A stretch of 64,000 bases of DNA from contig JAQWLH010000138.1 in assembly GCA_029247405.1 (NCBI GenBank), positions 1 to 64,000 on the forward strand, read 5' to 3'. Source of the DNA: Mariniblastus sp. (lineage in GTDB: Bacteria; Planctomycetota; Planctomycetia; Pirellulales; Pirellulaceae). The notes under the pieces were generated by a model. The model made no database searches. It was given only the letters and a program-made list of their open reading frames with translations, and was not told where the DNA came from. Both the position numbers and the translations under genes were made by a program. This document shows, in pieces, positions 10,105 to 56,673 of this stretch. The first letter of the stretch is position 1; every line of letters starts with the position of its first letter.

Positions 10105-10575
10105 TCAAACTGTATTCAATTTCTCTTTCTGCTCGGCTTTCTCTGCCTCACACCATTTGCTTGGCAACATGATGATCGGACAGGTCGATTTTGAAGTGAC
10201 CTTCTGGGCGACCGACCCCATGAACAAGCGCTGCAGCCCGGTTCGACCGTGCGTTGAAATAACAATCAATCCCGCGTCCAGCTTTTTGGCCAGCCGAATA
10301 ATCTGATCGGCAGGCTCACCGAATTCAGCGAAAAACTGAAGCCCGGTTCCATAGGCATGTTCCGCGACTTTGTCAAAGTCTTCGACACAACTATCGATCG
10401 CTTTCTGCTCTTGCTGAGGTCCCCAATCAATTCCAGTAGCGTACGGATTGGGTGGCTCGAGAACGCAGATGACTCGAATATCATTGGAGGGAAAATGCTG
10501 AAATGCATATTTCAGAGCCGCCTTGGAATGATTCGAAAAATCCCAAGGAACGATAATGGTTGATTCTGTATTCAT
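10105..10575 (-). CDS. Universal stress protein (UspA family)
   Basis: A protein of about 156 residues. The ATG at 10575 follows GGAAGAGG and gives MNTESTIIVPWDFSNHSKAAL, the standard Usp opening; an upstream ATG at 10650 would add an unconserved leader. The C-terminal ATP-binding loop is ISTHGRTGLQRLFMGSVAQKV, followed by CPIIMLPS, so it is a nucleotide-binding Usp. It is a second, divergent copy relative to the gene at 8877. It is divergently oriented from the potassium channel gene. Confidence 0.93.
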   Translation of the reverse strand: MNTESTIIVPWDFSNHSKAALKYAFQHFPSNDIRVICVLEPPNPYATGIDWGPQQEQKAIDSCVEDFDKVAEHAYGTGLQFFAEFGEPADQIIRLAKKLDAGLIVISTHGRTGLQRLFMGSVAQKVTSKSTCPIIMLPSKWCEAEKAEQKEKLNTV

Positions 10576-10960
10576 TGAACCTCTTCCGATTGAATATATC
10601 TTCCAGCCGTGGCACAAGTCGCACGCTCTTAAATGCAAACTTGATGCCACACCTGCAGTTTCCCGGGTTTGGCTTCAATTACCGGTCTGTAACGCACCTG
10701 TCGCGGCTATCACTTCTTTTAATCTTTGATACCAACCGTAAAATCTGCTCTGGGCAGAGATTAGTTAGAGTTAAGGCAATGAGTCGGGCGCGCGGTACCG
10801 CACACCACAATGCAAGATGGTGTTCCAAACCGCATTGAAAAGTCTAATCAAAAGCACCCGGCACGACCTTTGCATAGTCGGGACTCAATCAACCATCCAC
10901 CTGCAGCGATCCGCGATTTCCAATTAGCTAAGTCGCACGCAGCAGCTTTGAGTTAATTTT
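10576..10960. other. Divergent intergenic spacer
   Basis: A 385-base region between the minus-strand Usp gene and the plus-strand potassium channel gene. It presumably holds both promoters. I found no convincing FNR-type box (TTGAT-N4-ATCAA), no hairpin with a T-run and no small gene. Confidence 0.45.
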
Positions 10961-11962: not shown

Positions 11963-11975
11963 ACCGCTGTTGAAG

Positions 11976-14723
11976 ATGCAAGACGCTGAAAAAACATTGT
12001 CAACAAAAAACAACTGGCATCGCCTCTCCGCCGAAGAGGTATTTGCTCGGCTTTCCACTCGAACCACAGGGCTTTTGACGGCCGACGCAAAAAATCGACT
12101 TTTGCAATATGGTAATAATCAGATTGCTGACGCAGAACGCCGAACTTGGCCAACCTTGCTCGCCAGCCAGCTCAAAAGTTCACTCATCATCCTGCTGTTG
12201 GCCGCGGTCATCATCTCCTTCATTTTGGGGGAAACAACCGATGCCGTAGCCATTGTGGCGATTATTGCCCTCAATACCGCGCTCGGTTTTTGGCAAGATT
12301 ATTCGGCCGAAAAATCACTCGCCGAATTGAAAAAACTCTCTGTCCCCGAGGTCAACGTGCGTCGGGACGCAACGACTCACACACTGCCCGCTTCTCAGAT
12401 CGTACCCGGTGATATCGTCATCTTAAAAGCGGGCTATTTTGTTCCCGCCGATTGCCGAGTCCTAAGTCAAAATGATCTGGCAATTGACGAATCGACTTTG
12501 ACCGGCGAATCAATGCCTGTCAAAAAAACAACGGATGCTTTGCAACGGGAGCAAGTGTCGATCGGCGATCGCACCAATCTGGCATTCATGGGAACCCTTG
12601 TCGTCCGAGGACGTGGTGAAGCCATCGTCGTGGGCACGGGAATGAAAACAGAGATTGGTGAAATTGCCGACTCGCTCTTGTCAGTGAAAGCCGAGCCCAC
12701 GCCATTGCAAGTCAAGCTTGGCCAACTCAGTCGCTCACTGGCCTTGATCGCCTTGCTCGTTGTTGGAGTTATTTTCGCGACTGGCTTGCTCTCAGGTGAA
12801 CCGTTCAAAATCATGTTAATGACTGCCCTCAGCATGGCGGTGGCGATTGTTCCCGAAGGTTTGCCTGCAGTGGCAACGGTCGCTTTGGCGATCGGAGCAC
12901 GGAAAATGTTCTTACAAAATGCACTCATCCGCCAATTGCCAGCCGTCGAAACACTCGGATCAGTGTCGGTGATTTGCAGCGATAAAACGGGAACACTCAC
13001 CCAGAACAAAATGACTGCGACAATTCTGAACGTCGCCAATCGACGGTTGGATGTGGGGCCCGAAGTCGATTTGAATCATCAGCTCCATCCCGATTTTGAG
13101 CTCCTGTTGGCCGCCGGAGCGTTATGCAATGACGCTCAACTGCAACCGATCGAAAATAAAACAATCATCGCAGTTGGAGAGCCTACTGAAATGGCGTTGG
13201 TTGAGGTCGCTGCGAAATTGGGGATCAATCAAAGTGAATTGAATGATCAGTTTCCACGCCTGAGTGAAATCGCTTTTAGCTCTGAACGTAAACGAATGAC
13301 AACGCTGCATCAGACCAATACTGGGTCTTTGTTGAAAACCGTTTTCCCCGGCAAGGTGTCGATCAAGAGACTCACCTGCTGCAAAGGCGCCGTGGACCGT
13401 CTGTTGGAGATTTCAAGCTCCATCTGGGTCGATGGCGCCCCCCAACCGCTCAACGAATCTTGGAACCATCGAATTCGCAGATCACACGATGAATTGGCTA
13501 GTCAGGGCGTTCGAGTGCTGGCGGTGGCGGTGCGATTTTTGCAAAATCATGAAAGGGACGAGCCCTTGGAGAGTGGCTTGGTATTTGTGGGGCTGGTGGG
13601 TCTCACCGATCCACCCCGCCCGCAAGTCAAAGCAGCCGTGAAATTGTGCCAACGCGCGGGAATCCGACCCATCATGATCACCGGTGATCACCCTCTGACG
13701 GCACTAAGTATCGCCAAACAAATTGGGATTCACTCTGAGGGGCAAGTCGTAACCGGCCAGGAGTTATCTCAACTTTCAGTCGAACAATTGAGAGATCAAG
13801 TCAAACGTACCTCGATTTTTGCCCGAGTCGCTCCGATCGATAAACTTCACATTGTCGAAGCACTTGAGCACCATCATGAAGTCGTGGCCATGACTGGAGA
13901 TGGAGTCAACGACGCCCCCGCACTAAAACAGGCCAACGTCGGGGTTGCGATGGGGATCACCGGCACCGATGTTTCAAAACAAGCTGCCCAGATGGTGTTG
14001 TTGGATGACAATTTTTCGACCATCGTATCGGCTGTTGAACAGGGCCGAACGGTTTACGATAACATTCGAAAATTCGTTCGATATGCGATGTCTGGCAATC
14101 TTGGAGAGGTTTTCGTGATGACCGTGGGAGTGGTCTATGGCATGCCATTACCGTTACTGCCGCTGCAGATACTCTGGGTCAACCTGGTGACGGACGGACT
14201 GCCCGGTTTGGCCCTGGCACTTGAAGAACCAGAATCTGAAACAATGAATCGTCCAGCCATTCCCTTGGATGATCCAATCTTCAACCGCGATATGCTCTGG
14301 GATCTACTGTGGATTGGCTTTTGGATCTGCGTCGCGTCGCTGTTCACGGCAAACTTGTTCTGGAATGAATCCAAGGGAGTTCAACACTGGCGGACGATCG
14401 TCTTCACCGTCTTAACCATGACCCAAATGGCAAACGCATTTGCTTGCCGATCCGAAAACTCAATCCTGTTTTCATCCCGGTGGTTCGAAAATCGCTGGCT
14501 GTGGGCAGCAGTAACTTCAACCTTTGGACTTCAGATAGCGGTTATTTATTGGGCCCCGCTGCAAACTATTTTTCAGACCACCTCGTTAACAGCCCTTGAG
14601 TTTTTCGCTTGCCTCGCCAGTAGCTTGATTGTGTTTCTCTTGATCGAGTCTAAAAAGCTGCTGTTACATCAAAGATTGCATCAACAACGTCACTTTGAGC
14701 CGACATCCGACACAGCCAACTAA
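11976..14723 (+). CDS. SERCA-type cation-transporting P-type ATPase (P2A)
   Basis: A 915-residue pump. A TTG six bases upstream (11970) is in frame, but the ATG at 11976 is preferred. It has the actuator LTGES, the phosphorylation motif DKTGTLTQNK, the MTGDGVNDAPAL hinge, and about ten membrane helices. Ion-site residues of Ca2+ pumps are visible: PEGLP in M4, GNLGEV in M5 and NLVTDGLP in M6. These match SERCA site residues (E in PEGLP, N and D in M6), so Ca2+ export is the likeliest role, though bacterial members may also carry Na+ or other cations. It is co-directional with the channel gene and probably in its operon. Confidence 0.9.
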   Translation: MQDAEKTLSTKNNWHRLSAEEVFARLSTRTTGLLTADAKNRLLQYGNNQIADAERRTWPTLLASQLKSSLIILLLAAVIISFILGETTDAVAIVAIIALNTALGFWQDYSAEKSLAELKKLSVPEVNVRRDATTHTLPASQIVPGDIVILKAGYFVPADCRVLSQNDLAIDESTLTGESMPVKKTTDALQREQVSIGDRTNLAFMGTLVVRGRGEAIVVGTGMKTEIGEIADSLLSVKAEPTPLQVKLGQLSRSLALIALLVVGVIFATGLLSGEPFKIMLMTALSMAVAIVPEGLPAVATVALAIGARKMFLQNALIRQLPAVETLGSVSVICSDKTGTLTQNKMTATILNVANRRLDVGPEVDLNHQLHPDFELLLAAGALCNDAQLQPIENKTIIAVGEPTEMALVEVAAKLGINQSELNDQFPRLSEIAFSSERKRMTTLHQTNTGSLLKTVFPGKVSIKRLTCCKGAVDRLLEISSSIWVDGAPQPLNESWNHRIRRSHDELASQGVRVLAVAVRFLQNHERDEPLESGLVFVGLVGLTDPPRPQVKAAVKLCQRAGIRPIMITGDHPLTALSIAKQIGIHSEGQVVTGQELSQLSVEQLRDQVKRTSIFARVAPIDKLHIVEALEHHHEVVAMTGDGVNDAPALKQANVGVAMGITGTDVSKQAAQMVLLDDNFSTIVSAVEQGRTVYDNIRKFVRYAMSGNLGEVFVMTVGVVYGMPLPLLPLQILWVNLVTDGLPGLALALEEPESETMNRPAIPLDDPIFNRDMLWDLLWIGFWICVASLFTANLFWNESKGVQHWRTIVFTVLTMTQMANAFACRSENSILFSSRWFENRWLWAAVTSTFGLQIAVIYWAPLQTIFQTTSLTALEFFACLASSLIVFLLIESKKLLLHQRLHQQRHFEPTSDTAN

Positions 14724-15125
14724 ACGAGCGCTTGTGACCTCGGTCGTGCGAAACCGCTCGCTTCGTGAAACTCGCATCGCTTATCTCTTAAATTCAGGAA
14801 CATTGCTGTAATGGCATATCGTTTGCAGTTTGTTTTTACAATCCAATTATTCCTCAACTCACCTTTTTGAATTAATTATTTAAAAGTCCTCTGATTGCAG
14901 CAAACCATCTCCACTCCAAGACCAAACTGATGTCAAAACGACTCTTCAAGCTGCCTCCTGAGTGCTCGAATAAATTGTCATTTAATTTGCTTGGAGATAA
15001 CTCGAATCCAGGGAAGGTAAGAATGTCATTTAGAGAAGAATGTTGGCAATAGGGAAGCCGCCCTACAGACGCGGGTGAAGTTTGCCTACCACAACGTGCG
15101 ATCTCAAGTCCTGAATTGAAATATC
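14724..15125. other. Intergenic spacer
   Basis: About 400 bases between the P-ATPase and the ribosome hibernation factor gene. It is AT-rich around 14820-14890 and may hold the promoter of the downstream gene. I see no tRNA, no terminator with a T-run and no open reading frame worth calling. Confidence 0.4.
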
Positions 15126-15524
15126 ATGAAAATTGAAATTAAAACGAAGAATGTCAAAAGTGAAATCATGGTTCGAGAATACATCGAACGAAAAGTCCAC
15201 TTTGCATTGGATCGAATTAATGACCGGATCAATCGCGTGACAATTCGATTGGAAGACGAGACAAAAGACTCCGCACTTTTTGATGGCTCTTGCCGGATCG
15301 AAATTGAGCTCCAACCCCGAGGGCATGTCCATGTTTCTGCCGTTGGTGAATCCACATTTGATTGCGTCCTGAAAGCAATTCGTAAAATGGAGCATGCTGT
15401 CAAACATGACATTGATCGCCATCGGACGGCTGCCAAGATTCGACATCAAAAATCCAAGCGACACCCTACCTACGCACCGGAGTCCGTCGGTGATGTTGAA
15501 TCTTCGCCGCTGGACGCCGGTTAA
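15126..15524 (+). CDS. hpf: Ribosome hibernation promoting factor / RaiA-like
   Basis: A 132-residue protein with the HPF/YfiA fold: MKIEIKTKNVKSEIMVREYIERK, then a strand IEIELQPRGHVHVSAVGE and a helix FDCVLKAIRKMEHAVKHDIDR. It binds the 30S subunit and helps dimerise or silence ribosomes in stationary phase or hypoxia. It is closer to short HPF than to the long C-terminal-extended type, with a short polar tail. Its position beside Usp, CBS and ion-pump genes fits a dormancy or stress group. Confidence 0.85.
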   Translation: MKIEIKTKNVKSEIMVREYIERKVHFALDRINDRINRVTIRLEDETKDSALFDGSCRIEIELQPRGHVHVSAVGESTFDCVLKAIRKMEHAVKHDIDRHRTAAKIRHQKSKRHPTYAPESVGDVESSPLDAG

Positions 15525-15753
15525 TTGATTCCTTGAACTAAAGTGTCGAACTTCGCTGACGACAAATTCGTCATGAAAAATCAAATGCATCAATCGTGAC
15601 ACCATTGATCTTGTCGAGCCTGCCAAAAATGGTGAACGGGACCAAGACATCATCTTTGTTCGAGAGTTCACGTCCTGAACCCCTACTCTTCATTGACTGG
15701 CCTGCGTGGCTTCTTGTCGCGATGAGCCAGCGGTACTCACCCAAGGAAACGTT

Positions 15754-16185
15754 ATGATTCTGAAGGAATTAATGCGCGAAAATCTTGAAGTCCATAAGCT
15801 CACTCCTGATTCACACTTTTATCAGGCAGCTGAAATGATGCGAGAACATTCAGTCGGCTCAATTGTCGTCGTTGATGACAGTGAAAAAGTAGTCGGCATC
15901 CTGACCGACCGAGATATCGCATTAACCCTGGCTCTCGGGGCCGGCACACCGAATTCATTCGTTTCAGAAGCGATGACTCGCGAGGTCGAAACGATATCCG
16001 AATCCATGAGTTTATTTGATGCGACTCGCCTCTTTCGAACGATTTGCGTCAAACGGTTACCCGTCACTGACTCAGATGGCCGCCTGGTTGGCATCATCTC
16101 GATTGACGATGTCATGGCCCAACTGTCACGTGAGATGCTAGATACTTGCAGCGCGATGAAATCCAAATTGGGCCATATCGTCTGA
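15754..16185 (+). CDS. CBS-pair domain protein
   Basis: A protein of about 143 residues made of two CBS motifs. The ATG at 15754 is chosen because AAGGA lies seven bases upstream; an ATG at 15706 would add an unlikely leader. CBS1 contains VGSIVVVDDSEKVVGILTDRDIA and CBS2 contains VKRLPVTDSDGRLVGIISIDDV. Such free-standing pairs bind adenosine nucleotides and report energy status. It lies between the hibernation factor and the ArsR gene. Confidence 0.9.
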   Translation: MILKELMRENLEVHKLTPDSHFYQAAEMMREHSVGSIVVVDDSEKVVGILTDRDIALTLALGAGTPNSFVSEAMTREVETISESMSLFDATRLFRTICVKRLPVTDSDGRLVGIISIDDVMAQLSREMLDTCSAMKSKLGHIV

Positions 16186-16235
16186 AAGATTGACCATTCT
16201 GACGAAAATTTGCCATCCTCGACCAAAACTCTGGC

Positions 16236-16263
16236 TTGCCATATCGCGATATTCCGATATATT
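16236..16263 (+). promoter_or_regulatory. Putative ArsR promoter with operator copy 1
   Basis: A candidate sigma70 promoter: TTGCCA (16236-16241), 16-base spacer, TATATT (16258-16263), about 43 bases before the ArsR start. The spacer holds TATCGCGATATTCCGATAT (16242-16260), which is close to a second element at 16689-16707 (16 of 19 bases identical). Within it, ATATCGCGATAT is a perfect 12-base palindrome. The arrangement suits autorepression. Regulation is inferred from the sequence. Confidence 0.55.
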
Positions 16264-22010: not shown

Positions 22011-22184
22011 TCAGTCCTCTTTATCTTTCGCTGAATCTTTGACCTCCACGTCATCGTAGAGCATTCGTCTCGACGGCGTTTCCAAATCGTCAAATTGCCC
22101 ATTTCGAACTTGGATCACAAATACAATGACGGCCAGCAAAGCGATCCCAAGCGCTACCGGCAGAGCAATATAAAGAACGCTCAT
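22011..22184 (-). CDS. ccoS: cbb3 oxidase maturation protein CcoS
   Basis: A 57-residue protein. It starts MSVLYIALPVALGIALLAVI, one membrane helix, then FVIQVRNGQFDDLETPSRRM and a charged tail ending KDKED. The helix-then-GQFDDL-x-TP pattern is the CcoS/FixS signature. It assists assembly of cbb3 oxidase, probably heme/copper insertion into CcoN. Its ATG overlaps the ccoI stop by four bases (ATGA), showing translational coupling. Reverse-strand reading gives this frame clearly. Confidence 0.9.
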   Translation of the reverse strand: MSVLYIALPVALGIALLAVIVFVIQVRNGQFDDLETPSRRMLYDDVEVKDSAKDKED

Positions 22185-24733
22185 TGTTTAGCCTTTTCCT
22201 TCGGGGTCGCCCCTGATGTTAGTGAGAGGGCCACTACCGAGAGCGAACTGATCGGCATCAAAATGGCAGCCACCAAGGGGTTGATGAATCCGAAAAAAGC
22301 CAGTGATGCCCCACCGAGGTTATAACACAAAGAGATCGCTAAATTTTTTCGCATGGTTCGACCGGTACTTTGGCTGATTGCAATCAGTTTTAAAATTGGC
22401 TCCAAACCAGACTGGCCAAGATAAACAGGGGCAGCAGCCAAGCTCGCCTCGGCTCCATTTTTCACTGCAATACCAACACTCGCCGCCGCCAGCGCTGCAC
22501 TGTCGTTGACTCCATCCCCAACCATGATGACCGTCTGAGATTCGTTGGATTTCTTTTTCTGATGGAAGGGGGCCAAACTTCTCTGAATGACTTCTACTTT
22601 TTGCTCCGGACTCACTCCTCCCAAGACCAACGATTCTTCGATCGACAATTGTTTAGCCACGTGCTTGACGATCGTGGGATGGTCACCGGAAAGAATCCCC
22701 ACCTTCCAACCCTCTGATTTGAGCTGATCAATCGCGGAGCAGGTTTCTTTTCGGATCCGATCGCCCAATGCTGCAATCGCAACAATGGCTCCATCAACCG
22801 CGACCAAGCAAGGCGAAAAATTTTCTTGAAGGATTTGCTCTAATCTTCGTTGATGCCTGCGGGCGATCTTCACGCCCTGTTCCACAAATAAGTTCTCGCT
22901 ACCGATCAAGACTTGACGCCCATCAACCACGCCTTCCATCCCAAGACCCGTATGTTCTGAGATGTCGACCACATTCATGGGTTGAGGAGACTGGAACCAT
23001 GGCACCTCAGAACGTTTCGCCCGCTGACCGGTGTCGAGCGTGTCATTCGCAAAATCGACGATCGCTCTGGCGACTGGATGCGTTGACTTTCCCTCCAAGG
23101 CAGCCGCTGTCGGCAACCAGCGAGTATCGCCGAACCATTTGGAAACCGTTAAATGTCCCTCGGTCAACGTTCCAGTTTTGTCCAACCAAATCATGCCCGG
23201 TTGACGCAGCGACTGAAGGACATCTCCTCCCTTAATCATGATACGTTGTCTCGCGGCGCGGCCAATCGCAACAGAAATCGCTAAAGGTGTCGCCAGGGCG
23301 AGTGCACAAGGGCACGCCACGATCAACAGCGCGACCGTTCGTTCAACGGCCACATCAACATCAAACCAAATCCAGGAAAACAACGTCACGCAAGCCAAGG
23401 CGATCACCGCGAGGACAAAATGACCACCAATTCGATCCGCCCATTGGACCACCAGAGGTTTATCGAGGGAGGCCTGCTCTACCAACTCCACAATCTTGCT
23501 CAAACGCGTATCCGCACCTGTCGCGATCGCACGAATCGTAACAACAGAGGTTTCGTTGATCGTACCGGCGGAGACAGATTGCCCCGGGCCTTTGTCCAAC
23601 CATCTCGACTCGCCCGACAAAATAGACTCATCGACCTGTGTTGAGCCGTGGAGAATTTCACCGTCAACGGGAAACAAATCACCACTCAGAATTTCCAATT
23701 CGTCATCTTTTTGAATCAGGTCAACGGACGTTTCTACAGGTTGACCATCCACCAGCTTTCGGGTCCGCTGCGGTGTAAGCCGATACAACATTTCCACGGA
23801 GTCAGCAGCACGGCTTTGCTGGCGAAACTGAATCCAACGCCCAACAAGCAAAAGAAAAATCAGCACCGAGAGGGAGTCGAAATAGATTTCACCCGTCCCT
23901 CGAATCACATTGATCACTCCGGCCAAAGTTCCCACTGACAATCCGAGGGCAATCGGCAGATCCATATGCGGTGTTCGAGTTCGAATCGCACTGATCGCCC
24001 CCTGCAAAAAGATCCTTCCGGGCCACAACAGCGCCAACACCCCCGCAAGACAACTTGCGACGCGAAACATCTGACTCATCCCACTGGACATGTAGGAAAA
24101 CATGCCAAGGTAAAGCGCCGCTGAAATGATCATATTATTTCCAGCAGCCGCCGCCGCGATTCCAATTCGCGACAAATGTCGGCGGTTTTCGCGCTGAAAC
24201 CGATGACTGGATTCGCTTTCGCGAATCGGACTGGGTGAGTAACCAAGTCGGTGCAGGGTTGTGGCGATTTGGGACAGCTTGATTTGCTCAATTTGCCATC
24301 GGATCGCAACCGTCCCTTTTGACCAGTTCACCGTTGCACTCAAAACCCCCGGGGCAATCGTGGGAAGTTTTTCGAGCAGCCAAACACAAGCTCCACAGTG
24401 AATTCCGTCGAGAGCCAGCGTCATTAAAGAAGTCGTATTATCGGCCTGCGTGGCATACTTTTTCAGAAAGACCGCTTCATCCATTTCAGAAAATCGACTG
24501 GCAATCCTGTCTCGTTTCTGCAGCGTCTGGCGAGCGCTGTCAGACTCGACCATACGATAAAACGACTCCAAGCCACTCGAATGAATCAACTGAAAAGCAG
24601 TTCGACAGCCATGGCAGCAGAACTGATCGACTTGAGTTGCCTCAATCAACCCAAGGGGCACAGGTAATCCGCAATGGCGACACTTGTGGTCAGTCGTTGG
24701 CGTATTGGAGGGGGTAATGTTTTCGATGATCAT
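22181..24733 (-). CDS. ccoI: Copper-translocating P-type ATPase CcoI (FixI)
   Basis: An 850-residue P1B-type ATPase. It has an N-terminal CRHCGLP zinc-finger-like element and a CCHGC motif, an HMA-like domain with HCGACVW, the TGES-type actuator (LSGESR), CPCALALATP in the metal-transport helix, DKTGTLTEG, and GDGVNDSAAL. It exports or delivers copper to the CuB site of cbb3 oxidase. It overlaps safE by four bases upstream and ccoS by four bases downstream, as in other cco clusters. Confidence 0.95.
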   Translation of the reverse strand: MIIENITPSNTPTTDHKCRHCGLPVPLGLIEATQVDQFCCHGCRTAFQLIHSSGLESFYRMVESDSARQTLQKRDRIASRFSEMDEAVFLKKYATQADNTTSLMTLALDGIHCGACVWLLEKLPTIAPGVLSATVNWSKGTVAIRWQIEQIKLSQIATTLHRLGYSPSPIRESESSHRFQRENRRHLSRIGIAAAAAGNNMIISAALYLGMFSYMSSGMSQMFRVASCLAGVLALLWPGRIFLQGAISAIRTRTPHMDLPIALGLSVGTLAGVINVIRGTGEIYFDSLSVLIFLLLVGRWIQFRQQSRAADSVEMLYRLTPQRTRKLVDGQPVETSVDLIQKDDELEILSGDLFPVDGEILHGSTQVDESILSGESRWLDKGPGQSVSAGTINETSVVTIRAIATGADTRLSKIVELVEQASLDKPLVVQWADRIGGHFVLAVIALACVTLFSWIWFDVDVAVERTVALLIVACPCALALATPLAISVAIGRAARQRIMIKGGDVLQSLRQPGMIWLDKTGTLTEGHLTVSKWFGDTRWLPTAAALEGKSTHPVARAIVDFANDTLDTGQRAKRSEVPWFQSPQPMNVVDISEHTGLGMEGVVDGRQVLIGSENLFVEQGVKIARRHQRRLEQILQENFSPCLVAVDGAIVAIAALGDRIRKETCSAIDQLKSEGWKVGILSGDHPTIVKHVAKQLSIEESLVLGGVSPEQKVEVIQRSLAPFHQKKKSNESQTVIMVGDGVNDSAALAAASVGIAVKNGAEASLAAAPVYLGQSGLEPILKLIAISQSTGRTMRKNLAISLCYNLGGASLAFFGFINPLVAAILMPISSLSVVALSLTSGATPKEKAKQ

Positions 24734-25545
24734 TTTGAATCCACGTTGTCCAGTGTTTCACTGGAAGACGATTCACCGCCTGAACCGTCACTACAACAAG
24801 GCAACTCAGAATGGTCAATTTCTTTGACTTGCTCCGTCAATGCTTCAGCACCTTGCACGATCGTGGGAGCCTGATTCAACAAGATGGGAGCGCGAAACGT
24901 CAACGTAAACACTCCCAACAGAATAACCAGACTCGCCATCATCACAGGCACCTGTTTCTGAACCCCTTGGCTAATCTTGTGAAAGCCGAGCATCAGCGCA
25001 GCCATAATGGGAACGGTACCCGCCCAAAACACAACCATCAACAGTGTGCCCCAAAAGGGACTTCCGGTGCCAGCTGCGGTTACCGCAAACGTATAAAGCC
25101 AGCCACACGGCATCAGGCTCGTGAGCATACCGATTGTCATCGCCCGTGGTAACGGCTTCATCTGTTTGGTTTTCGCAAACCCCGCTTGCAACATTTTGTT
25201 CACCGGACTCAACACAGGCGGCAGGCGAAGCCTCATCCCAAAGTGTCTCGCCAACGCAATCACGCCGACTAAAATCATCAACGCTCCAGCAACGTAAGTC
25301 GCCGTTTGTTGCCATGCGACAAAAGATGTCCCCTGATTCAATGCTAAACCGAGTGAACCAAAAATAAACCCGACGATAGAATACGAAACCAGTCGACCAG
25401 CACTGTAGGCGACCGTTGGCACGACCGCCGCTTGACGTTTCTCTGGATCCGCACCGGCAATCAAAGCAAACGGGCCACACATACCAACGCAATGCAGGCT
25501 GCCCAACAGGCTGGCGACAAGAACAGTTCCAAGCAAAACGAGCAT
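24730..25545 (-). CDS. Sulfite exporter TauE/SafE-like (UreH domain) membrane protein
   Basis: A 271-residue integral membrane protein of about six helices with the family's opening GSLHCVGMCGPFALI and a mid-protein LTSLMPCGWLYTFA. In cbb3 clusters this family sits between ccoH and ccoI and is thought to help metal supply or assembly. The C-terminus ends with a short polar, Cys-containing tail (PCCSDGSGG). It overlaps ccoI by four bases and lies one base after ccoH. Confidence 0.9.
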   Translation of the reverse strand: MLVLLGTVLVASLLGSLHCVGMCGPFALIAGADPEKRQAAVVPTVAYSAGRLVSYSIVGFIFGSLGLALNQGTSFVAWQQTATYVAGALMILVGVIALARHFGMRLRLPPVLSPVNKMLQAGFAKTKQMKPLPRAMTIGMLTSLMPCGWLYTFAVTAAGTGSPFWGTLLMVVFWAGTVPIMAALMLGFHKISQGVQKQVPVMMASLVILLGVFTLTFRAPILLNQAPTIVQGAEALTEQVKEIDHSELPCCSDGSGGESSSSETLDNVDSK

Positions 25546-25546
25546 C

Positions 25547-26080
25547 TCAATGTGCCTTCAACAAACTAAGGAACGTTCGTTTTTCGATCTGAAGCACATG
25601 CTCGTTGACGACCGCAACCCCACTGAACTGCCAGTTTCCTTCATTGCGAACCTGAACCTGAGTTGAGTAAATTCCCGGTTCAATTTCAGTAAATTCAAGA
25701 TTTTGAACCTCGGCAGCTTTTCCCCGATGAAACGCGCGGACTTCAACTTTTGCATTCTCAACCGGTGCCTTATTTCGATCCGTCAGCTCCAAACTTATCG
25801 TTCGATTACCCCGAACATCACCGGTCGGCGCGATTTCAAGTGTTGAGATCCAACCGAGTGCGTCGCTGGCACGCTGCTGTGCCTGCAAATCATCCCATCG
25901 CAACGCCTGCTCGTCGTACCCAGCGACAACCGCATGCGAGGAGTCTCGTGAAGTGATAAGAATTGCAACGGTCCAGATGGCCGCTTGAATCAGGAAAAAA
26001 GATAAAATGAATCCCGTCCAGATAAGTTGCGTCGTTTTTTCTTTTCTTGGCAGCGGAATAGAATTCATGGTCGTTTTCAT
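25547..26080 (-). CDS. ccoH: FixH/CcoH family cbb3 assembly protein
   Basis: A 177-residue protein with one N-terminal membrane helix (about 20-45) and a periplasmic beta-rich domain containing ISLELTDRNKAPVENAKVEV and FTEIEPGIYSTQVQV, the FixH pattern. It is required for stable cbb3 oxidase assembly. A TTG three bases before ATG 26080 could be used; no clear ribosome-binding site is visible for either. It comes directly before safE. Confidence 0.88.
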   Translation of the reverse strand: MKTTMNSIPLPRKEKTTQLIWTGFILSFFLIQAAIWTVAILITSRDSSHAVVAGYDEQALRWDDLQAQQRASDALGWISTLEIAPTGDVRGNRTISLELTDRNKAPVENAKVEVRAFHRGKAAEVQNLEFTEIEPGIYSTQVQVRNEGNWQFSGVAVVNEHVLQIEKRTFLSLLKAH

Positions 26081-26207
26081 CAAGATTAAAAAGTCTAAGC
26101 GAACATAACCAAACCCGATCGCAGGGCGATTCCGATCCGTTTATTTTACATGAACGACCGGTAAGGCTTGGCTTTGATTGTTTTCTACTTCGATTATCGT
26201 CGGAATT

Positions 26208-27596
26208 TTAGTTGTAAGGGCCGACCAGTTTGAAACTCAAGGTTCTGGACACTTCGTTGCCGTTTTCGCAGGTCAATTGCAAGTCAGCCCGACCCAGCAC
26301 AAACACATCACGAGGGGCAATGATACTCACGTGAAACGTTTTAGTTTCTCTTGGTTGGAGTTGTAATTGATCTTCCCGAAAATCAATTGTCGCGCTCGCT
26401 GGCTCCTCGACTCTGGCAGCAAAACTCATAACCTCATCGGTCCGATTGGTCAGTTTAAGCTTCAACAGATTTCTCACCTGGCCGTCTTCAGTCAACGTGT
26501 GTGGATTGCCCGGTTCACGAAGCACAATTGCATCAAACGATTTGGACGCCAGAAAAACTGCCAAAAAGGCCACGATGATGCCTACCAGCAAAAGTGGATA
26601 AATGATCGTCCTTGCTCGAATCAGGCCTGCCGCTAAACCACGATCCCGTGCCTGAGAGCTATAGCGTATTAAATTTGGTTCGCGCCCTACCTTTTTCATC
26701 ACAAGATTACAGGCGTCAATGCATTGCGTGCAGTTAATGCACTCCATTTGCAGACCTTCTCGAATGTCGATGCCAGTTGGGCAAGTGGAAACGCAGTTGC
26801 CACAATTGATGCAGTCCCCAAGTACGGGCAAACCGTCCACCTTGCTTTTTTTGATCTTCCCGCGTGGTTCACCCCGGTTCTCGTCATAGGCAACAATCAC
26901 TGAATTCTGATCCAAAAGCACCGATTGAAATCGGCCATAAGGACAAGCGATCAGACACATCTGCTCGCGGAAATAACAGAAGTCAACCATCATCACAAAA
27001 GTAACAAATGACATTACAGCAAAAGGAACAGGATGATTGATAGGGGATTGCGTTACCCACTCGCTTAATCGGTCGACCCCGATGAAGTAAGCCAAGAAGG
27101 TGTTGGCGAGATAGACGCACAGGATGAAGTAAACAAAATATTTAGCGACGGTTCGCCAGCCAGCTATGTTTTTTTTATGTCCACCACGCCCCTTGGTCCC
27201 ATCAAACAATCTCTCCACAGGCCGGAACAAAAATTCCATGTAAACCGTTTGCGGACAGGCCCAGCCACACCAAACTCTGCCGAACAAGGCAGTGAACAAA
27301 AACACCGTCAACAACAAACCAACTACAAAGATCGTCAGCAAGACAGTGTCGGTCGGTAAAAATGTAAATCCCAAAATCGTGAAACGTCGCGATGCAATAT
27401 CAAGCAACACCAACGGTTTGCCCGCAAGTTTGATATACGGAACCAGAGTAAATATCGCAATCAAGACATATGAAAACAGACGCCGACGATTTAATAGCTT
27501 GCCCTTACTGAGCTTGGGCTTCAACCAACGCCGAGAACCATCAGCCTCGAGCGTGCTGAGCACATGTTCTTCGGGGGTGAGCATGGGTGAGTTCAT
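26208..27596 (-). CDS. ccoG: cbb3 oxidase accessory iron-sulfur protein CcoG (RdxA)
   Basis: A protein of about 462 residues. Five membrane helices carry the CGWACPQTVYMEFLFRP motif. Two ferredoxin [4Fe-4S] motifs follow (CINCGNCVSTCPTGID and CINCTQCIDAC), then a C-terminal Ig-like domain. CcoG is a cupric reductase that supplies Cu(I) for cbb3 assembly. The ATG at 27596 is preferred to one at 27617 because the next residues NSPMLTPEEHVLST give a usual start. A 217-base gap separates it from ccoP. Confidence 0.95.
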   Translation of the reverse strand: MNSPMLTPEEHVLSTLEADGSRRWLKPKLSKGKLLNRRRLFSYVLIAIFTLVPYIKLAGKPLVLLDIASRRFTILGFTFLPTDTVLLTIFVVGLLLTVFLFTALFGRVWCGWACPQTVYMEFLFRPVERLFDGTKGRGGHKKNIAGWRTVAKYFVYFILCVYLANTFLAYFIGVDRLSEWVTQSPINHPVPFAVMSFVTFVMMVDFCYFREQMCLIACPYGRFQSVLLDQNSVIVAYDENRGEPRGKIKKSKVDGLPVLGDCINCGNCVSTCPTGIDIREGLQMECINCTQCIDACNLVMKKVGREPNLIRYSSQARDRGLAAGLIRARTIIYPLLLVGIIVAFLAVFLASKSFDAIVLREPGNPHTLTEDGQVRNLLKLKLTNRTDEVMSFAARVEEPASATIDFREDQLQLQPRETKTFHVSIIAPRDVFVLGRADLQLTCENGNEVSRTLSFKLVGPYN

Positions 27597-27813
27597 GATG
27601 AACCAGAAATTCCGCAAATATCAGAGGTTAATTCGATTGATCAAGCGCTGGCAAAAAGGCACATTTTCGATTTAGCCTCATGCACAAGTGGCACCAGCTG
27701 ACATCTCAGCAAAAAGGTAATCGGCCCTTGAGACTGTCTCCTCAACCATCCCAATGCCTAGCAGCTATTTTGGTTGGCCTCGTAATTGAATTTTTCAACT
27801 TCCAAAGACCTGG

Positions 27814-28425
27814 CTATTGCCAAGGTCCAATCGCTTTTCCTTCGGGCGCTTTTCCTCCGGAAACCGGATTCGCCCGGAGTGACGCAATGTACGCAGCGGT
27901 CAACACGATTTGGTTTTGATGACTCAAGCGATTTTTCCATGCAGGCATCGCACCGTTGGCAGCTCCTTTTTCAATAACCGATGCAATCCCTTCAACGTTG
28001 GTGACGTTTTTCCAGTAATCGTCGGTCAAGTTCGGTCCAACCAAACCACCCCCGTCAGCCCCATGGCAGCTGACGCAATTTGCTTTGTAAACCACTTTCC
28101 CAACCGACAGCCACTCGGGTTTATTCATATACTCTAAAATCGTTTCGCGATCCGCTTCAAGTTCTCCGATCTCCTGAAATCGAAGCTCAAATACGCTCGC
28201 CATGTGATTTTCATATTGATCGTAGATCGAACGCCCCTCGGAATGGACGTAAATGTAATAGATGGGCGCAAAAATGATCGCGACCCAAAACAAGAACTTC
28301 CACCAACCTGGCAGCGGGTTATCGTATTCCTGAATCCCGTCGTACGAGTGGTTCGTCAGGATCTCTTCTGGATTCGGTGAGTCGGAGAGTCCGCTTTGAG
28401 ACTCTGGGTAGATTGATTCGCTCAT
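27814..28425 (-). CDS. ccoP: cbb3-type cytochrome c oxidase subunit CcoP (mono-heme)
   Basis: A 203-residue subunit with NPLPGWWKFLFWVAIIF as its membrane helix and a single cytochrome c domain: CVSCH near residue 115 and an axial Met in GAMPAW. Typical CcoP has two heme motifs; only one is present here, so it is the mono-heme form. It carries electrons toward CcoO and CcoN. ccoQ ends two bases before its start. Confidence 0.92.
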   Translation of the reverse strand: MSESIYPESQSGLSDSPNPEEILTNHSYDGIQEYDNPLPGWWKFLFWVAIIFAPIYYIYVHSEGRSIYDQYENHMASVFELRFQEIGELEADRETILEYMNKPEWLSVGKVVYKANCVSCHGADGGGLVGPNLTDDYWKNVTNVEGIASVIEKGAANGAMPAWKNRLSHQNQIVLTAAYIASLRANPVSGGKAPEGKAIGPWQ

Positions 28426-28427
28426 GG

Positions 28428-28595
28428 TTATTTCTCCGCTTTGTCACCGAGTACGATATTGGCCTGTTCTTTCGTCACTTCACTGCTCGTCATGAGGGTC
28501 CGAACGACCACCGCAACAAACACGAAGGCAAACATGACGAGTGCCATTTCGGCAAACATTCCATAATCGAGATAGCTGGTTAGTTTTTTGATCAT
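28428..28595 (-). CDS. ccoQ: cbb3 oxidase subunit CcoQ (FixQ)
   Basis: A 55-residue protein read on the minus strand: MIKKLTSYLDYGMFAEMALV, then a hydrophobic helix to about residue 33, then a short polar tail ending GDKAEK. This is the FixQ/CcoQ layout and it sits at the expected place between ccoO and ccoP. It probably stabilises CcoP in the complex. Confidence 0.85.
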   Translation of the reverse strand: MIKKLTSYLDYGMFAEMALVMFAFVFVAVVVRTLMTSSEVTKEQANIVLGDKAEK

Positions 28596-28646: not shown

Positions 28647-29735
28647 TTATTCCGAAATCTTCTTGTCCGTCGTAATTTTCGGGGTCGCCGACTTTGCGTT
28701 TTCATCTAAATCGTTCATTTTTGCTCCTGCTGTTGGCTCTGCTTGCACAGCTCCATCGGGCGTAACTTTGTCGTCACTAGATGTAATTTCCTCATCCGCT
28801 TCTGCGAACAAATCAATTCCGACCCTCTGCAGGTACGCAATCATGGCGATTACTTGCGTCTTTTCGAGGTCTATCTCGGTGCCGTCGCTAGTTTTGAATT
28901 TCGCAGGACCACCCTGCTCTATCAGTTCTCTCACAATCTTGCGAGCTTGTTCATGGGCCATTTCCTCGGCTTCATCCAGCTCGCGATCGTACGGGGCCCC
29001 AAGCATCGCAGCAGCGTTGATACGCCCTTGGATTGATCCAAAATTCAATTCGGTCGTGATTAAATGTGGGTAAGCCGGCATGACGCTTCCCTTGGTCATC
29101 GACGCCGGTTCACGAAAATGTTCAAAATGCCACAAATGCGATTGCTTGCCTCCTTCACGAGCCAAGTCGGGGCCAATTCTTCGTGAGCCCCATTGAAACG
29201 GGCGGTCATATATGTGTTCACCCGGTTTGGAATACTCACCATAACGTTCAGTTTCTGCAAAAAGTGGTCGAATCTGTTGTGAGTGACAATTGTAACATCC
29301 CTCGGCGACATAAATGTCGCGACCGGCAAGTTCCAAAGGCGTAAAGGGTTTGACCGAAGCGATGGTTGGAATGTTGGAACGAATCAAAAATGTCGGAACC
29401 AACTCAAAGGCCGAGGCAGCGAGAACCGCAATCGTTACCCACACAGTAAATCGAATGGGCATGCGTTCCCAAACTCGATGCCAACCAGCTTGCTCCCAGA
29501 CATCGATCTTATGCGCGACTGTCAAAACAGGTTTGTCTTTCAAACGCGATTCAGGGTTCGGCGAATCAACAAAATCTTTTGACAATCGAGCTGCCTGAAG
29601 CACAGGCACTTCGTACGTTTTGGGGCGTGAACGCCAAGTCATCAAATAGTTGATGGCCATCAGTAAGATACCCACGATGTACAACACACCGCCAGCGATT
29701 GCGCAATCCAACAACACTAAGGTCAAGTTAGTCAA
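28647..29735 (-). CDS. ccoO: cbb3 oxidase subunit CcoO with apparent CcoN C-terminal remnant
   Basis: A 362-residue frame starting at a TTG; no good ATG start is present and the frame stays open to an in-frame stop at 29769-29771. The CcoO membrane helix is at about residues 95-118 and heme site CYNCHSQ at 147-153, with axial Met in GSVMPAYPHL. About 95 extra residues precede this: a hydrophobic helix (about 5-33: IAGGVLYIVGILLMAINYLMT), then a linker. That looks like the last helix of CcoN, as in CcoN-CcoO fusion proteins. The rest of CcoN is not found upstream. It may be a truncated fusion. Confidence 0.8.
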   Translation of the reverse strand: MTNLTLVLLDCAIAGGVLYIVGILLMAINYLMTWRSRPKTYEVPVLQAARLSKDFVDSPNPESRLKDKPVLTVAHKIDVWEQAGWHRVWERMPIRFTVWVTIAVLAASAFELVPTFLIRSNIPTIASVKPFTPLELAGRDIYVAEGCYNCHSQQIRPLFAETERYGEYSKPGEHIYDRPFQWGSRRIGPDLAREGGKQSHLWHFEHFREPASMTKGSVMPAYPHLITTELNFGSIQGRINAAAMLGAPYDRELDEAEEMAHEQARKIVRELIEQGGPAKFKTSDGTEIDLEKTQVIAMIAYLQRVGIDLFAEADEEITSSDDKVTPDGAVQAEPTAGAKMNDLDENAKSATPKITTDKKISE

Positions 29736-29930
29736 TTCAATAAGCCAACCATTTCGTGTCAGCCTGATTTAACCGCTGACCCGCAGGCTCACGTTGTTAG
29801 CCGACGTGACGGCAATCATTAGCTTGAGGGGGAAGTTCAAAAGCAACATTGAGCGCGACCCTCTCGCCCCACTCAATGAACTTTTTTTCAGCCCTTGGAG
29901 AGCCCCAACCATTCGATTGACTTGGCTTAT

Positions 29931-30953
29931 TTACTTCACTCGAACAAGCTTCATGATTCGCCCAGAGACGTTCCAGTCCTGCACGTAAAGATTACCAACG
30001 CCATCCCAGTAAGAACCATGAGTTCCACTGAAAACACCTTCAACCCATTGCTCTTGGGGAACCTGGAAACTTCGCCCCTTGGCCGGGTCCGGGTTATACC
30101 CCAAGACTGCCATGACCGTGTTGGTTTTGTCGAGAATCACCAGACGACCCAGCAAGTCAGGGACTGAAACGTAATCCCCCTGAACAGCGACCGATGTGGG
30201 CATTCCTAACCCTGTGATAACTTCCTCTATAAATTCGCCGTCGAGGGAATAATGAACCAGTCGACCTTTAGGTTGGTGATTGCGATCGCAGATCAACAAT
30301 CGATGAGGAGTGTATCGAGTGTCGAGTGTCATTCCATGAGCGGTGTTGAACTGCTTGAGAGCATTTCCTTTTTCACCAAAGTGCATGACGTATTTACCAT
30401 TTTTATCGAATTTGAAAATGTGATTACTTGCGTAACCGTTCGACAGAAAGATATCGCCATTTTCAGCAACTGTGATCGCCGTCGGATTAAACCGCTTCAG
30501 TCCCAAGCCCGACTCTTGAGGGAAGGGAAGCTTGATGACGATTTCTCCAGTACGTGAATTAAACTTGATCCCCTCAGCATCCTGATTTCTCGCCGCATAA
30601 ATAAATTCATCATCACCCTCTTTGCGGATCTCGAGATCATGGCAATTTGAATAGTCCTTTCCAAGATATGACTTGATGACTTTTCCGTCAGGTGAAAACA
30701 CAAACACGCCGGCATTAGCACTGGTATAAATATTTCCTGCTGAATCGACGACCACACCGCCATGGGTGGGTCCGACCGCTGAATTCCCGTCTGGCCGAAG
30801 CCCCCAGCCAGGAACGGTATCAAAGGTCATGAGCCCACAGCCCATTCGCACGGGCTGAACTTTTTCAGCATCATCTTGTGCAAACGCATCAAGCGACGCG
30901 AGCAAAGAGATCCCAATGATTGCAATTGTAAATTTAACAAAACAAAACTTCAT
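29931..30953 (-). CDS. Secreted NHL-repeat beta-propeller protein
   Basis: A protein of about 340 residues with a signal peptide (MKFCFVKFTIAIIGISLLAS ... AFAQ). The ATG at 30953 has AGGAG upstream; an ATG at 31019 would add a non-conserved leader. Repeated blades have GGVVVDSAGNIYTSANAGV, AITVAENGDIFLSNGY and HGMTLDTRYTPHRLLI, the NHL-like six-bladed propeller pattern also seen in peptidylglycine lyase domains. It is periplasmic; the ligand is unknown. It lies next to the truncated ccoO end but is not part of that pathway. Confidence 0.82.
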   Translation of the reverse strand: MKFCFVKFTIAIIGISLLASLDAFAQDDAEKVQPVRMGCGLMTFDTVPGWGLRPDGNSAVGPTHGGVVVDSAGNIYTSANAGVFVFSPDGKVIKSYLGKDYSNCHDLEIRKEGDDEFIYAARNQDAEGIKFNSRTGEIVIKLPFPQESGLGLKRFNPTAITVAENGDIFLSNGYASNHIFKFDKNGKYVMHFGEKGNALKQFNTAHGMTLDTRYTPHRLLICDRNHQPKGRLVHYSLDGEFIEEVITGLGMPTSVAVQGDYVSVPDLLGRLVILDKTNTVMAVLGYNPDPAKGRSFQVPQEQWVEGVFSGTHGSYWDGVGNLYVQDWNVSGRIMKLVRVK

Positions 30954-31398
30954 CAGTTTGGCTCCTAGTGATGGTGCGTAGTGGCCACAACCACTTGGAT
31001 GTGATTTTGGCTTTTTCAAATCATAAATGACGACGACTCAGATTGACAGGATATTTGATGCGAACCTAGTCAGGAAATGAAATTCGCATCAGAGAACCTC
31101 TTTAGCTGAGGCTTACTTGGCGGCGGTTTGAAGTTTTGTCAAATTAGGGGTGGCGTTTGCAAATGAAAAACTCCGGAGCAAAATTTTATCCCCACGGCAA
31201 TCCTCCGTATTGATCGTTTGTCTAAAAATGAACCAGCCGATGGCACTAGCGAATTTTTCTTGAGCCGGGACTAATTCCAATTTTTATCACCACAATTATT
31301 TTGGTGTAAAATAATGCCTGCGGCAGGCGCATCTAAACTGCAACCCTAGATCAGTAACCGCCACTTTTTTGACAACACAAATCGTTATCCGACCAAAC
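30954..31398. other. Divergent intergenic spacer
   Basis: About 445 bases between the minus-strand propeller gene and the plus-strand sulfatase. It has two small inverted repeats: CACCA/TGGTG with a nine-base loop (31288-31306) and GCCTGCGGCAGGC (31316-31328). Neither is followed by a T-run, so I do not call terminators. No small gene is supported. Confidence 0.4.
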
Positions 31399-33393
31399 AT
31401 GAAAACACTTTGCATTTCACTGTTGATTCTGTTTGCCGGCGCATTGCCTGCCACCAGAGCTCAAATCATCGTTGACCACTTCTCTGACGCGAAATCCGGT
31501 GTGCGAACCGCGGAACGTGGCGACTGGGCATTCAGCAACAACACCGCGAGTTGCATTGCCGACGCTCAGCTCTATAAGAAATTCAAGAACCACGGTCCGA
31601 TTTTGAAGTGGCCAGTGACGGAGGAGTTTACCGATGGAGCCGTTGAGTTTGAAATGAAAGCGGAAGATTGTCAGCGAGTAGTTTTTACTTTTAATGGCGA
31701 CGGTCACATTTTCCGCATGACTCTAGCTGATCAAACGCAAGATTCCGCAGCCGGTCCGTCAAAGGTGCCCACTCGTCTGATCGCGTGGGCCGAGAAATCT
31801 TCGAAGGAAAACAAAGGGGAGACGATCAAGCCGCAGGGGTTACTCGATCTTCCTGCGATCAACGGCAAATGGACGAAAGTCAAAATCTCTATCCAAGGCC
31901 AAGTGGCAGACTTGACCATTGGCGATTTCCGATACACGCTTCATCACGCCGCATTAGCTCGTAACAAGAACATGACGATGTTGACGTTCGCTCATGGAAA
32001 GTTATCGGTTCGCGACTTCAAGTTTTCCATTCCTCCAAAGATGAAACCGAATGTCTTGATGATTGCGATCGACGATCTCAACGACTGGGTGGGTTGTCTC
32101 GGTGGCCATCCGCAAGCCAGATCTCCTAATATTGATCGTCTCGCTGAGCAGGGGACGCTTTTTACGAATGCACATTGCCAGGCTCCAATTTGTAATCCTT
32201 CGCGAACAAGCATCATGTACGGGCTTCGTCCCTCAACAAGCGGCGTCTACATGAATGCCCCTCGCCCATGGACTGTCAATCAATTGAAAAATCGAATTAC
32301 GCTACCGCGTCATTTTGCGGCCAACGGATACGAGACTTATACCGCTGGAAAAATTTATCACGGTTCCGGTTTGCCTGAAGGGGACTTTGATGTCGTTGGA
32401 CCACGCGGGGGCCAGAAAAATAAGCTGGACAAACGACTCGTCCAGGCGACTGAAGGTGGCGCCAAAGGGCTGTGGGATTTCGGACCACAAACGTATGAAG
32501 AGCGTTTCTTTCAGGATCACGAGAGCGCGAGTTGGGCGATTGACCAAATCAACTCTCATAACTCAGGCAATCATGGAAATCCATTTTTCATGACCGTCGG
32601 ATTCTATCGGCCGCATGTTCCATTTTATTCACCCCAGCGAGTGTTTGATCAAATCCCACAAAAAGACATTGCCCTGCCAAAAGTGAAAGAGGGAGATCGA
32701 GACGACCTGCCAGAAATCGCTGCCGAGTTAATGACAGCGTTTGTAGCACCCGATCATGCATGGTTTGTCGAAAGCGGAAAATGGAGGGAAGCAGTTCAGT
32801 CCTACCTCGCTTGCATTCGTTATACCGATGAGCAAGTGGGCCGACTGCTTGACTCACTCAAAGCCAGCCCCCATGCCAAAAACACAATCGTCATTCTCTA
32901 TTCGGATCACGGATTTTTCCTTGGCGAAAAAGAGCGCTGGGCCAAACAATCACTTTGGGAACGAGCGACGCGGGTTCCATTTATTGTGGTCGCACCCGGT
33001 ATGCAGCCCGGCGAAAAAGTCCAACAGCCAACAGAGTTACTTTCGATCTATCCCACGTTGATTGAACTCTGCGGGCTGACGAAACAGGACGGTCTTGAGG
33101 GCCGCAGCCTCGTGCCTTTATTGAAGAACTCACAATTCGATTGGCCTCATGTCGCGTTGACGTCGCATGGAAAGGACAACCATGCAGTTCGCACCCAGAC
33201 CCATCGCTACATTCGGTATCGTGATGGGTCAGAAGAGCTTTACGATCTGCGAGTGGATCCCAACGAGTGGAACAATATCGCGGGCGATCCTGAACAAGCA
33301 GATCTCAAGCGAGAATTAGCCAAGTCATTCCCTGTCATCAATGCAGTGCCCGCCAAAAGTAGTGGAAAGCCGGCAAAAAGAAAAAAGCAGTAG
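31399..33393 (+). CDS. Secreted sulfatase with N-terminal beta-sandwich domain
   Basis: A protein of about 664 residues from the ATG at 31399, giving a signal peptide ending PATRAQ. Residues about 22-215 are beta-rich with little resemblance to sulfatases and resemble a concanavalin/DUF1080-type beta-sandwich. The sulfatase part begins at NVLMIAIDDLNDW, has formylglycine motif CNPSR, GKIYH, YRPHVP and YSDHGFFLGEKERWAKQ. It is of the iduronate-2-sulfatase-like type. It likely combines substrate binding and desulfation. The next sulfatase starts 136 bases downstream in the same direction. Confidence 0.9.
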   Translation: MKTLCISLLILFAGALPATRAQIIVDHFSDAKSGVRTAERGDWAFSNNTASCIADAQLYKKFKNHGPILKWPVTEEFTDGAVEFEMKAEDCQRVVFTFNGDGHIFRMTLADQTQDSAAGPSKVPTRLIAWAEKSSKENKGETIKPQGLLDLPAINGKWTKVKISIQGQVADLTIGDFRYTLHHAALARNKNMTMLTFAHGKLSVRDFKFSIPPKMKPNVLMIAIDDLNDWVGCLGGHPQARSPNIDRLAEQGTLFTNAHCQAPICNPSRTSIMYGLRPSTSGVYMNAPRPWTVNQLKNRITLPRHFAANGYETYTAGKIYHGSGLPEGDFDVVGPRGGQKNKLDKRLVQATEGGAKGLWDFGPQTYEERFFQDHESASWAIDQINSHNSGNHGNPFFMTVGFYRPHVPFYSPQRVFDQIPQKDIALPKVKEGDRDDLPEIAAELMTAFVAPDHAWFVESGKWREAVQSYLACIRYTDEQVGRLLDSLKASPHAKNTIVILYSDHGFFLGEKERWAKQSLWERATRVPFIVVAPGMQPGEKVQQPTELLSIYPTLIELCGLTKQDGLEGRSLVPLLKNSQFDWPHVALTSHGKDNHAVRTQTHRYIRYRDGSEELYDLRVDPNEWNNIAGDPEQADLKRELAKSFPVINAVPAKSSGKPAKRKKQ

Positions 33394-33529
33394 AACTGAA
33401 TTCTGGAAAACAACACTCTAAAATTATGACTTAAGCGTGGATCGGGCGCGATCTCCTTTACAGAGGAGGAACGCTCCACTTTTTCAAACGCGTCCAACCC
33501 TTCGTCGTTTTGGTCAAGCAGAAAATTCA

Positions 33530-34921
33530 ATGCAAATGAATCACTTCCGATTGTTAACTCTTGTGTTACTTGTCGTCACGGGAATCTATCACGTGCCGCC
33601 AGCCCGAGCCGACGAAAAGCCAAATATCCTCCTCATCCTTGCGGACGATCTTGGATATCAAGATCTTGGCTTTCAAGGCTCGCCAGAAATTAAATCACCC
33701 AACCTGGATCAACTTGCCGAGAATGGGATTCGTTTTACCGATGGGCATGTAACCGCCTCTGTTTGCAGCCCTTCACGCGCCGGTTTGATGACCGGTCGCT
33801 ATCAACAAAGATTTGGACACGAAGCCAATGTTCCGCCAACGCCACATGGAATGGACTTGGACGAAACCACACTGGCCCAAAGATTACAGCAAGCCGGATA
33901 TCGAACTGGAATCGTCGGCAAATGGCATCTCGGAAATCTTGATACGCAATATCCGACCGCTCGCGGCTTCGATTACTTTTACGGACTTCGCGAGGGTAGT
34001 CGAAGTTACTTTTATAAACCAGAAAAAGACGACAAACCGGGAAACTTTCACGGCATTGAAGAAAATGGGAAACAGGTCAAGTTCGATGGCTACCTCACAG
34101 ATGTCTTGGGCGATAAAGCAATCGAGTTCATCAAACGAAAATCAGAAAAACCCTTTTTCCTCTACCTCTCATTTACCGCACCGCACGGACCGATGCATGG
34201 TACTGAAGAAGACATTGCAAGATTCTCACAGATCCAAAACAAAAAACGCCGGACTTACGCCGCGATGGTTTGGGCAATGGATCGAGCAATTGGAAAAGTC
34301 CTCAAAGAATTGGAAGAGCAAGGGATTGCTGATAACACCATGATTTGGTTCTTGAGCGACAACGGTGGCGCGACCGGAAATGCCTCGGTCAATTTACCAC
34401 TTGCCGGACACAAAGGGATTAAGTTTGAAGGCGGCATCCGCGTACCGTTTATCATGCATTGGAAAAAGAAATTCCCCTCGGGGCACCAGACATTTACACC
34501 GATGGTCAGCGCCCTCGACATTCTCCCAACCTGCGTCGCAGCAGCCGGCGTCGAACTGAAAGCAGAATCCACACGACCCATCGACGGTGTTGATCTGCTG
34601 CCATTTCTTTCAGCAACCAATAAAACACCGCCCCATGAGAAACTTTACTGGCACAAGCTCTGGTTTTCCGCGATGCGACACGGGCCTTGGAAACTCATCT
34701 ATGTGCAGGATTACGGATATGCACTCTACAATCTTGACCGTGATCCGCGAGAATTAAAAAACCTAGCGAACACGGAGAAGCAACGACTAGAGGAAATGAA
34801 ATTGAGCCTCAATAGCTGGAAAGCAGAAATGATCGAACCTCAATGGAGTGAAAACAAGGTCTGGTTTAAAACCCACAGCAAGAACCACATCCGAATCATT
34901 GAAGGCAAGGACGGTCGTTGA
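33530..34921 (+). CDS. Secreted arylsulfatase A-like sulfatase
   Basis: A protein of about 463 residues. From the ATG at 33530 it has a signal peptide ending ARAD. Landmarks are ILADDLGYQDLGF, VCSPSRAGLMTGRY, GKWHLGN, APHGPM, LSDNGGA and the lysine/His segment HKGIKFEGGIRVPF. CSPSR is the canonical formylglycine motif. It resembles arylsulfatase A/N-acetylgalactosamine-6-sulfatase groups rather than the iduronate group upstream. It probably acts together with the previous sulfatase on one polysaccharide. Confidence 0.93.
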   Translation: MQMNHFRLLTLVLLVVTGIYHVPPARADEKPNILLILADDLGYQDLGFQGSPEIKSPNLDQLAENGIRFTDGHVTASVCSPSRAGLMTGRYQQRFGHEANVPPTPHGMDLDETTLAQRLQQAGYRTGIVGKWHLGNLDTQYPTARGFDYFYGLREGSRSYFYKPEKDDKPGNFHGIEENGKQVKFDGYLTDVLGDKAIEFIKRKSEKPFFLYLSFTAPHGPMHGTEEDIARFSQIQNKKRRTYAAMVWAMDRAIGKVLKELEEQGIADNTMIWFLSDNGGATGNASVNLPLAGHKGIKFEGGIRVPFIMHWKKKFPSGHQTFTPMVSALDILPTCVAAAGVELKAESTRPIDGVDLLPFLSATNKTPPHEKLYWHKLWFSAMRHGPWKLIYVQDYGYALYNLDRDPRELKNLANTEKQRLEEMKLSLNSWKAEMIEPQWSENKVWFKTHSKNHIRIIEGKDGR

Positions 34922-56628: not shown

Positions 56629-56673
56629 GGTCGCCCGCAGGATCCACTTTGGGCGAGATTCACAACCTGCCAA

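Follow-up and report, generated by a model that had tools for sequence, protein, structure and literature searches.

A truncated ccoNO gene heading a planctomycete cbb3 oxidase cluster, and a complete CcoNO on a second contig

The cluster examined here, for a high-affinity cbb3 oxidase, starts with a shortened ccoNO gene that retains CcoO and only the last transmembrane helix of CcoN, and a complete CcoNO is encoded on a second contig, C283, of the same bin. The reading we favour, with a probability of about 0.6, is a real deletion of ccoN at a rearrangement, with CcoNO supplied in trans by C283. The window, as we call the whole stretch of DNA analysed, comprises bases 1-64000 of contig C211 (70,440 bases) and is free of any N; the draft genome has 302 contigs and is 84% complete.

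The cco cluster and its truncated first gene

The order on the minus strand was propeller gene, spacer, truncated gene, ccoQ, ccoP, ccoG, ccoH, safE, ccoI and ccoS, with the following features:

29931..31019, minus strand: six-bladed propeller (NHL-like) gene, sitting where ccoN would be
29772..29930, no strand: spacer separating the truncated gene from its propeller neighbour, free of recognisable CcoN
29700..29744, minus strand: degenerate stretch in which CcoN homology breaks, weak DNA and protein resemblance
29640..29699, minus strand: remnant of CcoN TM12 (IAGGVLYIVGILLMAINYLM), DNA identity to six relatives
28647..29735, minus strand: truncated ccoNO, CcoO preceded by the linker and the final transmembrane helix of CcoN
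28428..28595, minus strand: ccoQ-like small membrane protein, for which four relatives have a 62-71% identical ORF in the corresponding place
27814..28425, minus strand: ccoP with a single CxxCH, FixP_N
26208..27617, minus strand: ccoG, TIGR02745 (6.5e-125)
25547..26083, minus strand: ccoH, FixH (1.2e-15)
24730..25545, minus strand: safE, a membrane protein typical of cco clusters and belonging to the DsbD_2 family, PF13386 (9.5e-42)
22181..24733, minus strand: ccoI, copper P-type ATPase, by family search
22011..22184, minus strand: ccoS, TIGR00847 (8.6e-11)

Every gene that the first-pass annotation had placed in the cluster (ccoO, Q, P, G, H, safE, I and S) was recovered by ORF, family or relative matches; the ccoQ-like ORF gave no NCBIfam match. 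The window ccoP product was the only FixP_N protein in the whole genome, and ccoG was likewise single-copy. This CcoP carries one CxxCH, the usual number being two.

The truncated gene is an ORF of 362 aa with a TTG start, and its upstream frame is closed by a TAA at 29771-29769, where the first-pass annotation had located the stop. The Pfam domain FixO spans residues 86-308 (5.8e-84, 281 bits), the ccoO model scores 209 bits, over its cut-off, and the protein is monohaem, with the haem c site CYNCH at residue 147. The frame thus holds a CcoO domain with CxxCH; a CcoN haem-copper domain was not found in it. About 85 residues precede CcoO and include one transmembrane helix predicted by inspection. 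NF011053, the NCBIfam model of fused CcoN/CcoO (also PRK14485, bifunctional cbb3 subunit I/II), matches the protein only from model position 439 of 716, so that the last 275 or so positions are represented and positions 1-438, the catalytic part, are absent. Because the match begins only there, residues 13-84 are, as judged from the model alignment, CcoN TM12 and linker, which agrees with the earlier proposal that the extension is the end of a CcoN-CcoO fusion. At the DNA level the TM12 remnant was 62-77% identical to six relatives, which were 63-76% identical among themselves, and the window CcoO was 70-78% identical to the CcoO part of close relatives' fused CcoNO over 305 residues.

The normal form of the gene was assessed in 396 genomes of the order, 83 of which carry this CcoO (own genome counted), with 86 matches. 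Frames of at least 642 aa were found for 85 of the 86 matches across the 396 genomes, the window, at 373 aa, being the sole exception. Among the best 80 loci in the named genome collection, 72 were fused, six had ccoN separate and adjacent, two were cut by contig ends, and none lacked ccoN. A separate set of same-genus genomes contributed one more short match (G023), whose contig starts inside the gene. The nearest named relatives of the window gene are Pirellulaceae and Planctomycetaceae MAGs, and a fused ccoNO heads the same Q-P-G-H-SafE-I order in G008, G024 and L027. On this comparison relatives normally carry CcoNO as a fusion. As ccoNO is intact in relatives, with the fused gene heading the same cluster, the window arrangement reads as a loss and not as an alternative gene start. 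CcoO homologues starting at the same unfused helix, named beforehand as evidence against truncation, were looked for and did not appear; comparable planctomycete homologues all begin inside a fused CcoNO, as expected for the truncated fusion that had been proposed.

The break and the adjoining spacer

Homology to the relatives' fused CcoNO DNA was normal to 29699 and fell abruptly from 29700, with a collapse of identity at 29700-29714, where the relatives are 86% identical to one another. Mean identity over the 45 nt of 29700-29744 was 41% (P 0.007). Within this stretch 29721-29744 aligned ungapped and in frame at 50% identity (P 0.004 on DNA against all window positions), and the in-register protein trace LIELTN against the relatives' FVETVN gave P 0.002-0.014. 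As the block was chosen after the alignment was seen, and is therefore partly post hoc, we regard this trace of CcoN past the break as weak and suggestive only. By eye, a compensated frameshift seemed to lie near 29700-29715; it was dropped because gapped scores were at shuffle level.

Beyond 29744, no CcoN fragments scored above shuffles in a profile DNA search and gapped alignment with six relatives. The absence of a CcoN-like peptide from 29772-29930, claimed in the first-pass annotation, held up on DNA as well, since the score of 29739-29930 against CcoN DNA did not exceed that of shuffled sequence. The spacer showed neither a promoter nor a terminator pattern, with the proviso that planctomycete promoters may fall outside the scan; its RNA structure was not notable (z -1.7), and an FNR-type box upstream of the cluster gave no consistent signal in the window or in relatives. 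The only significant other own-genome DNA match to 29600-29990 was the homologue on C283 (73 bp at 79%), and the junction is not spanned by any repeat that recurs elsewhere in the genome.

The break coincides with a synteny boundary between two conserved gene blocks that lie apart in relatives. On one side, G024 has its cco cluster on one contig with homologues of the window genes from 8.9-19.5 kb. On the other, the propeller gene and its right-hand neighbours (SdaA, sulfatase, esterase and others) are in part collinear with G007 and G003 contigs; neither of these genomes gave a CcoO match. A search of 100 other own contigs (1.35 Mb) for the genes that would have been displaced 3' of the propeller gene gave just a 59% match at a contig end, compatible with rearrangement and join alike. 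By these gene orders, truncation at the block boundary fits either a rearrangement breakpoint or an assembly join. Compared with G007 and G003, the propeller-to-SdaA block (29931-62000) also shows a local inversion, and a sulfatase has moved across the propeller gene.

A complete CcoNO of different ancestry

The first-pass annotation had described the cluster as lacking CcoN. This held for the window, where neither tblastn with full CcoNO nor a COX1 search revealed CcoN elsewhere in the 64 kb, and failed for the genome. A COX1 family scan of the whole bin returned three proteins, two of which were other oxidase types by sequence and neighbour inspection; the third was a complete 924-aa CcoNO on contig C283 (6,393 bases; L003:995-3769). 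It matches NF011053 over its full length (1214.8 bits, cut-off 1080), has histidines H71, H219, H269/H270 and H357/H359 in cbb3-type motifs, and carries an additional C-terminal haem-binding domain, TIGR02603, beyond the NF011053 architecture. The genome search yielded no stand-alone ccoN, only this one complete fusion.

On C283 the gene lies after yifB and before methyltransferase-like and amidohydrolase-like ORFs (all three named by inspection); ccoQ, ccoP and ccoG are absent from its neighbourhood. Chains joining CcoN, CcoO and a cytochrome c were also seen in L021, L023, L025 and L029, a TIGR02603 model match being confined to the C283 protein; the tailed CcoNO genes of G008, G001 and G013 are nonetheless followed by a ccoP of their own.

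The tetranucleotide distance of C283 falls at the 73rd percentile of the genome's own fragments. Its yifB is the sole copy in the bin and is 92% identical to that of G004 and 86% to that of G008; CtaD of the genome is also closest to G004. From composition and marker identity, we infer a common organism for C283 and the window contig.

A tree built on the CcoO portion united the window copy with L027 (support 86/80) and placed the C283 copy among the CcoNO proteins of G008, G001, G013 and L029 (support 90/77). G008, G001 and G013 visibly share the tail type; in L029 the contig ends within the tail. The tree points, with moderate confidence, to different ancestries for the two copies. As it places the C283 copy in another lineage, that copy is neither the missing half of the window gene nor a recent duplicate of it. 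C283 is moreover complete with its own CcoO, 76% identical to that of the window, an identity too distant for recent duplication. The branch of the window CcoO (0.25, against 0.15-0.33 in most close relatives) was not accelerated, and with its length being ordinary there is no sign of CcoO degeneration.

Competing explanations and related systems

The complete cbb3 set (CcoN, CcoO, CcoP, G, H, I and S) was found only when the window and C283 were combined, and this complementary gene content makes one working cbb3 oxidase plausible, so that the organism probably has the enzyme despite the truncation. In the explanation we favour, a rearrangement would have brought the cco cluster and the propeller-gene block together and removed the first ~450 codons of ccoNO, with all catalytic ligands, leaving CcoO and one spare helix. 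The catalytic CcoNO would then come from C283, and CcoQ, CcoP, G, H, SafE, I and S from the window cluster; judged by gene content, the two sets of products may form one enzyme, in which the window CcoO would be redundant or a relic. The truncation would probably be lineage-specific and tolerated because the C283 gene supplies CcoN in trans. That the window CcoO is without decay, unexpected for an old relic, counts against this explanation, as do the 84% completeness of the bin and the mere 6.4 kb of C283. A related possibility, which we consider doubtful, is a replacement that divided the oxidase between two loci: the other-lineage CcoNO, with its additional cytochrome c domain, would have displaced the native CcoN, leaving CcoO as a separate two-helix cytochrome c.

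The first-pass annotation had offered a deletion, a split gene elsewhere or an assembly join. The split gene does not stand in detail, the only CcoN being an independent, complete CcoNO; the other two both remain. An assembly join would mean that the real genome has a complete ccoNO, that the contig was wrongly joined near 29700-29930, and that the ccoNO on C283 is an additional orphan copy, and the truncation would then have no biological meaning. The location of the break exactly between the cco cluster block and the propeller-to-SdaA block agrees with such an error, and so do the full conservation of the remnant to 29699, the abrupt drop thereafter and an intact ccoNO in every comparable relative. 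Yet the COX1 scan, which returned C283 and the two non-cbb3 oxidases only, found no displaced ccoN fragment in the bin, no shared repeat crosses the junction, and the degenerate CcoN trace may extend beyond the break. We hold a join to be possible, at well under even odds. The in-register trace, the lack of a leftover ccoN fragment in the bin and the second CcoNO mildly favour a real deletion, and the truncation is likely to be present in the organism itself. That C283 derives as contamination from a relative in the same sample, the window organism truly being without a cbb3 catalytic subunit, is unlikely. We retain a small probability for it because the composition of G008 is indistinguishable from that of this genome; C283 is also short, and its CcoNO shares 80% identity with the G008 protein. 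The sole yifB of the bin is nevertheless nearer G004 than G008, in line with CtaD, and G004 itself has no CcoO match. Least probable, in our view, is that the short CcoO works as a stand-alone, two-helix, membrane-anchored monohaem cytochrome c, in another electron route or as an alternative CcoO partner. Its intact sequence, conserved haem site, identity to relatives and unaccelerated branch would suit such a role, but a recent truncation would appear equally intact, the form was found in no other genome compared, and the spacer has no promoter-like pattern in a scan that may miss those of planctomycetes.

Deletion with supply in trans has a partial parallel in Pseudomonas aeruginosa, in which the orphan CcoN proteins of ccoN3Q3 and ccoN4Q4 were shown biochemically to assemble with subunits from other operons (PMC5697931). 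The likeness is that the gene for a catalytic subunit lies outside the main operon and supplies the oxidase. The main operons of P. aeruginosa keep their own CcoN, whereas here the main cluster lost it; the orphan here belongs to another phylum and is a CcoN-CcoO fusion, whose assembly in trans is proposed from sequence. CcoN and CcoO as one protein have been reported in Nitrospina gracilis (PMC3578206) and Melioribacter roseus (PMC5492636); in the relevant passages of those papers the fusions are complete and no truncated second copy is described. If real, the present arrangement would be a natural cbb3 oxidase in which a catalytic subunit of another lineage, encoded elsewhere, recruits accessory subunits, and it would test the interchangeability of cbb3 parts outside Pseudomonas. 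It also cautions that a catalytic gene missing from a cluster does not mean an enzyme missing from the genome.

By inspection, genes at 8877-16262, near the cco cluster, encode a TrkA-type channel, a cation P-type ATPase and universal stress proteins; they share a contig with the cco cluster in G024 as well and may represent a low-oxygen gene neighbourhood. Six sulfatase-like genes lie within the 64 kb (1926-3377, 31369-34921 and 53156-58179), as is typical of planctomycetes.
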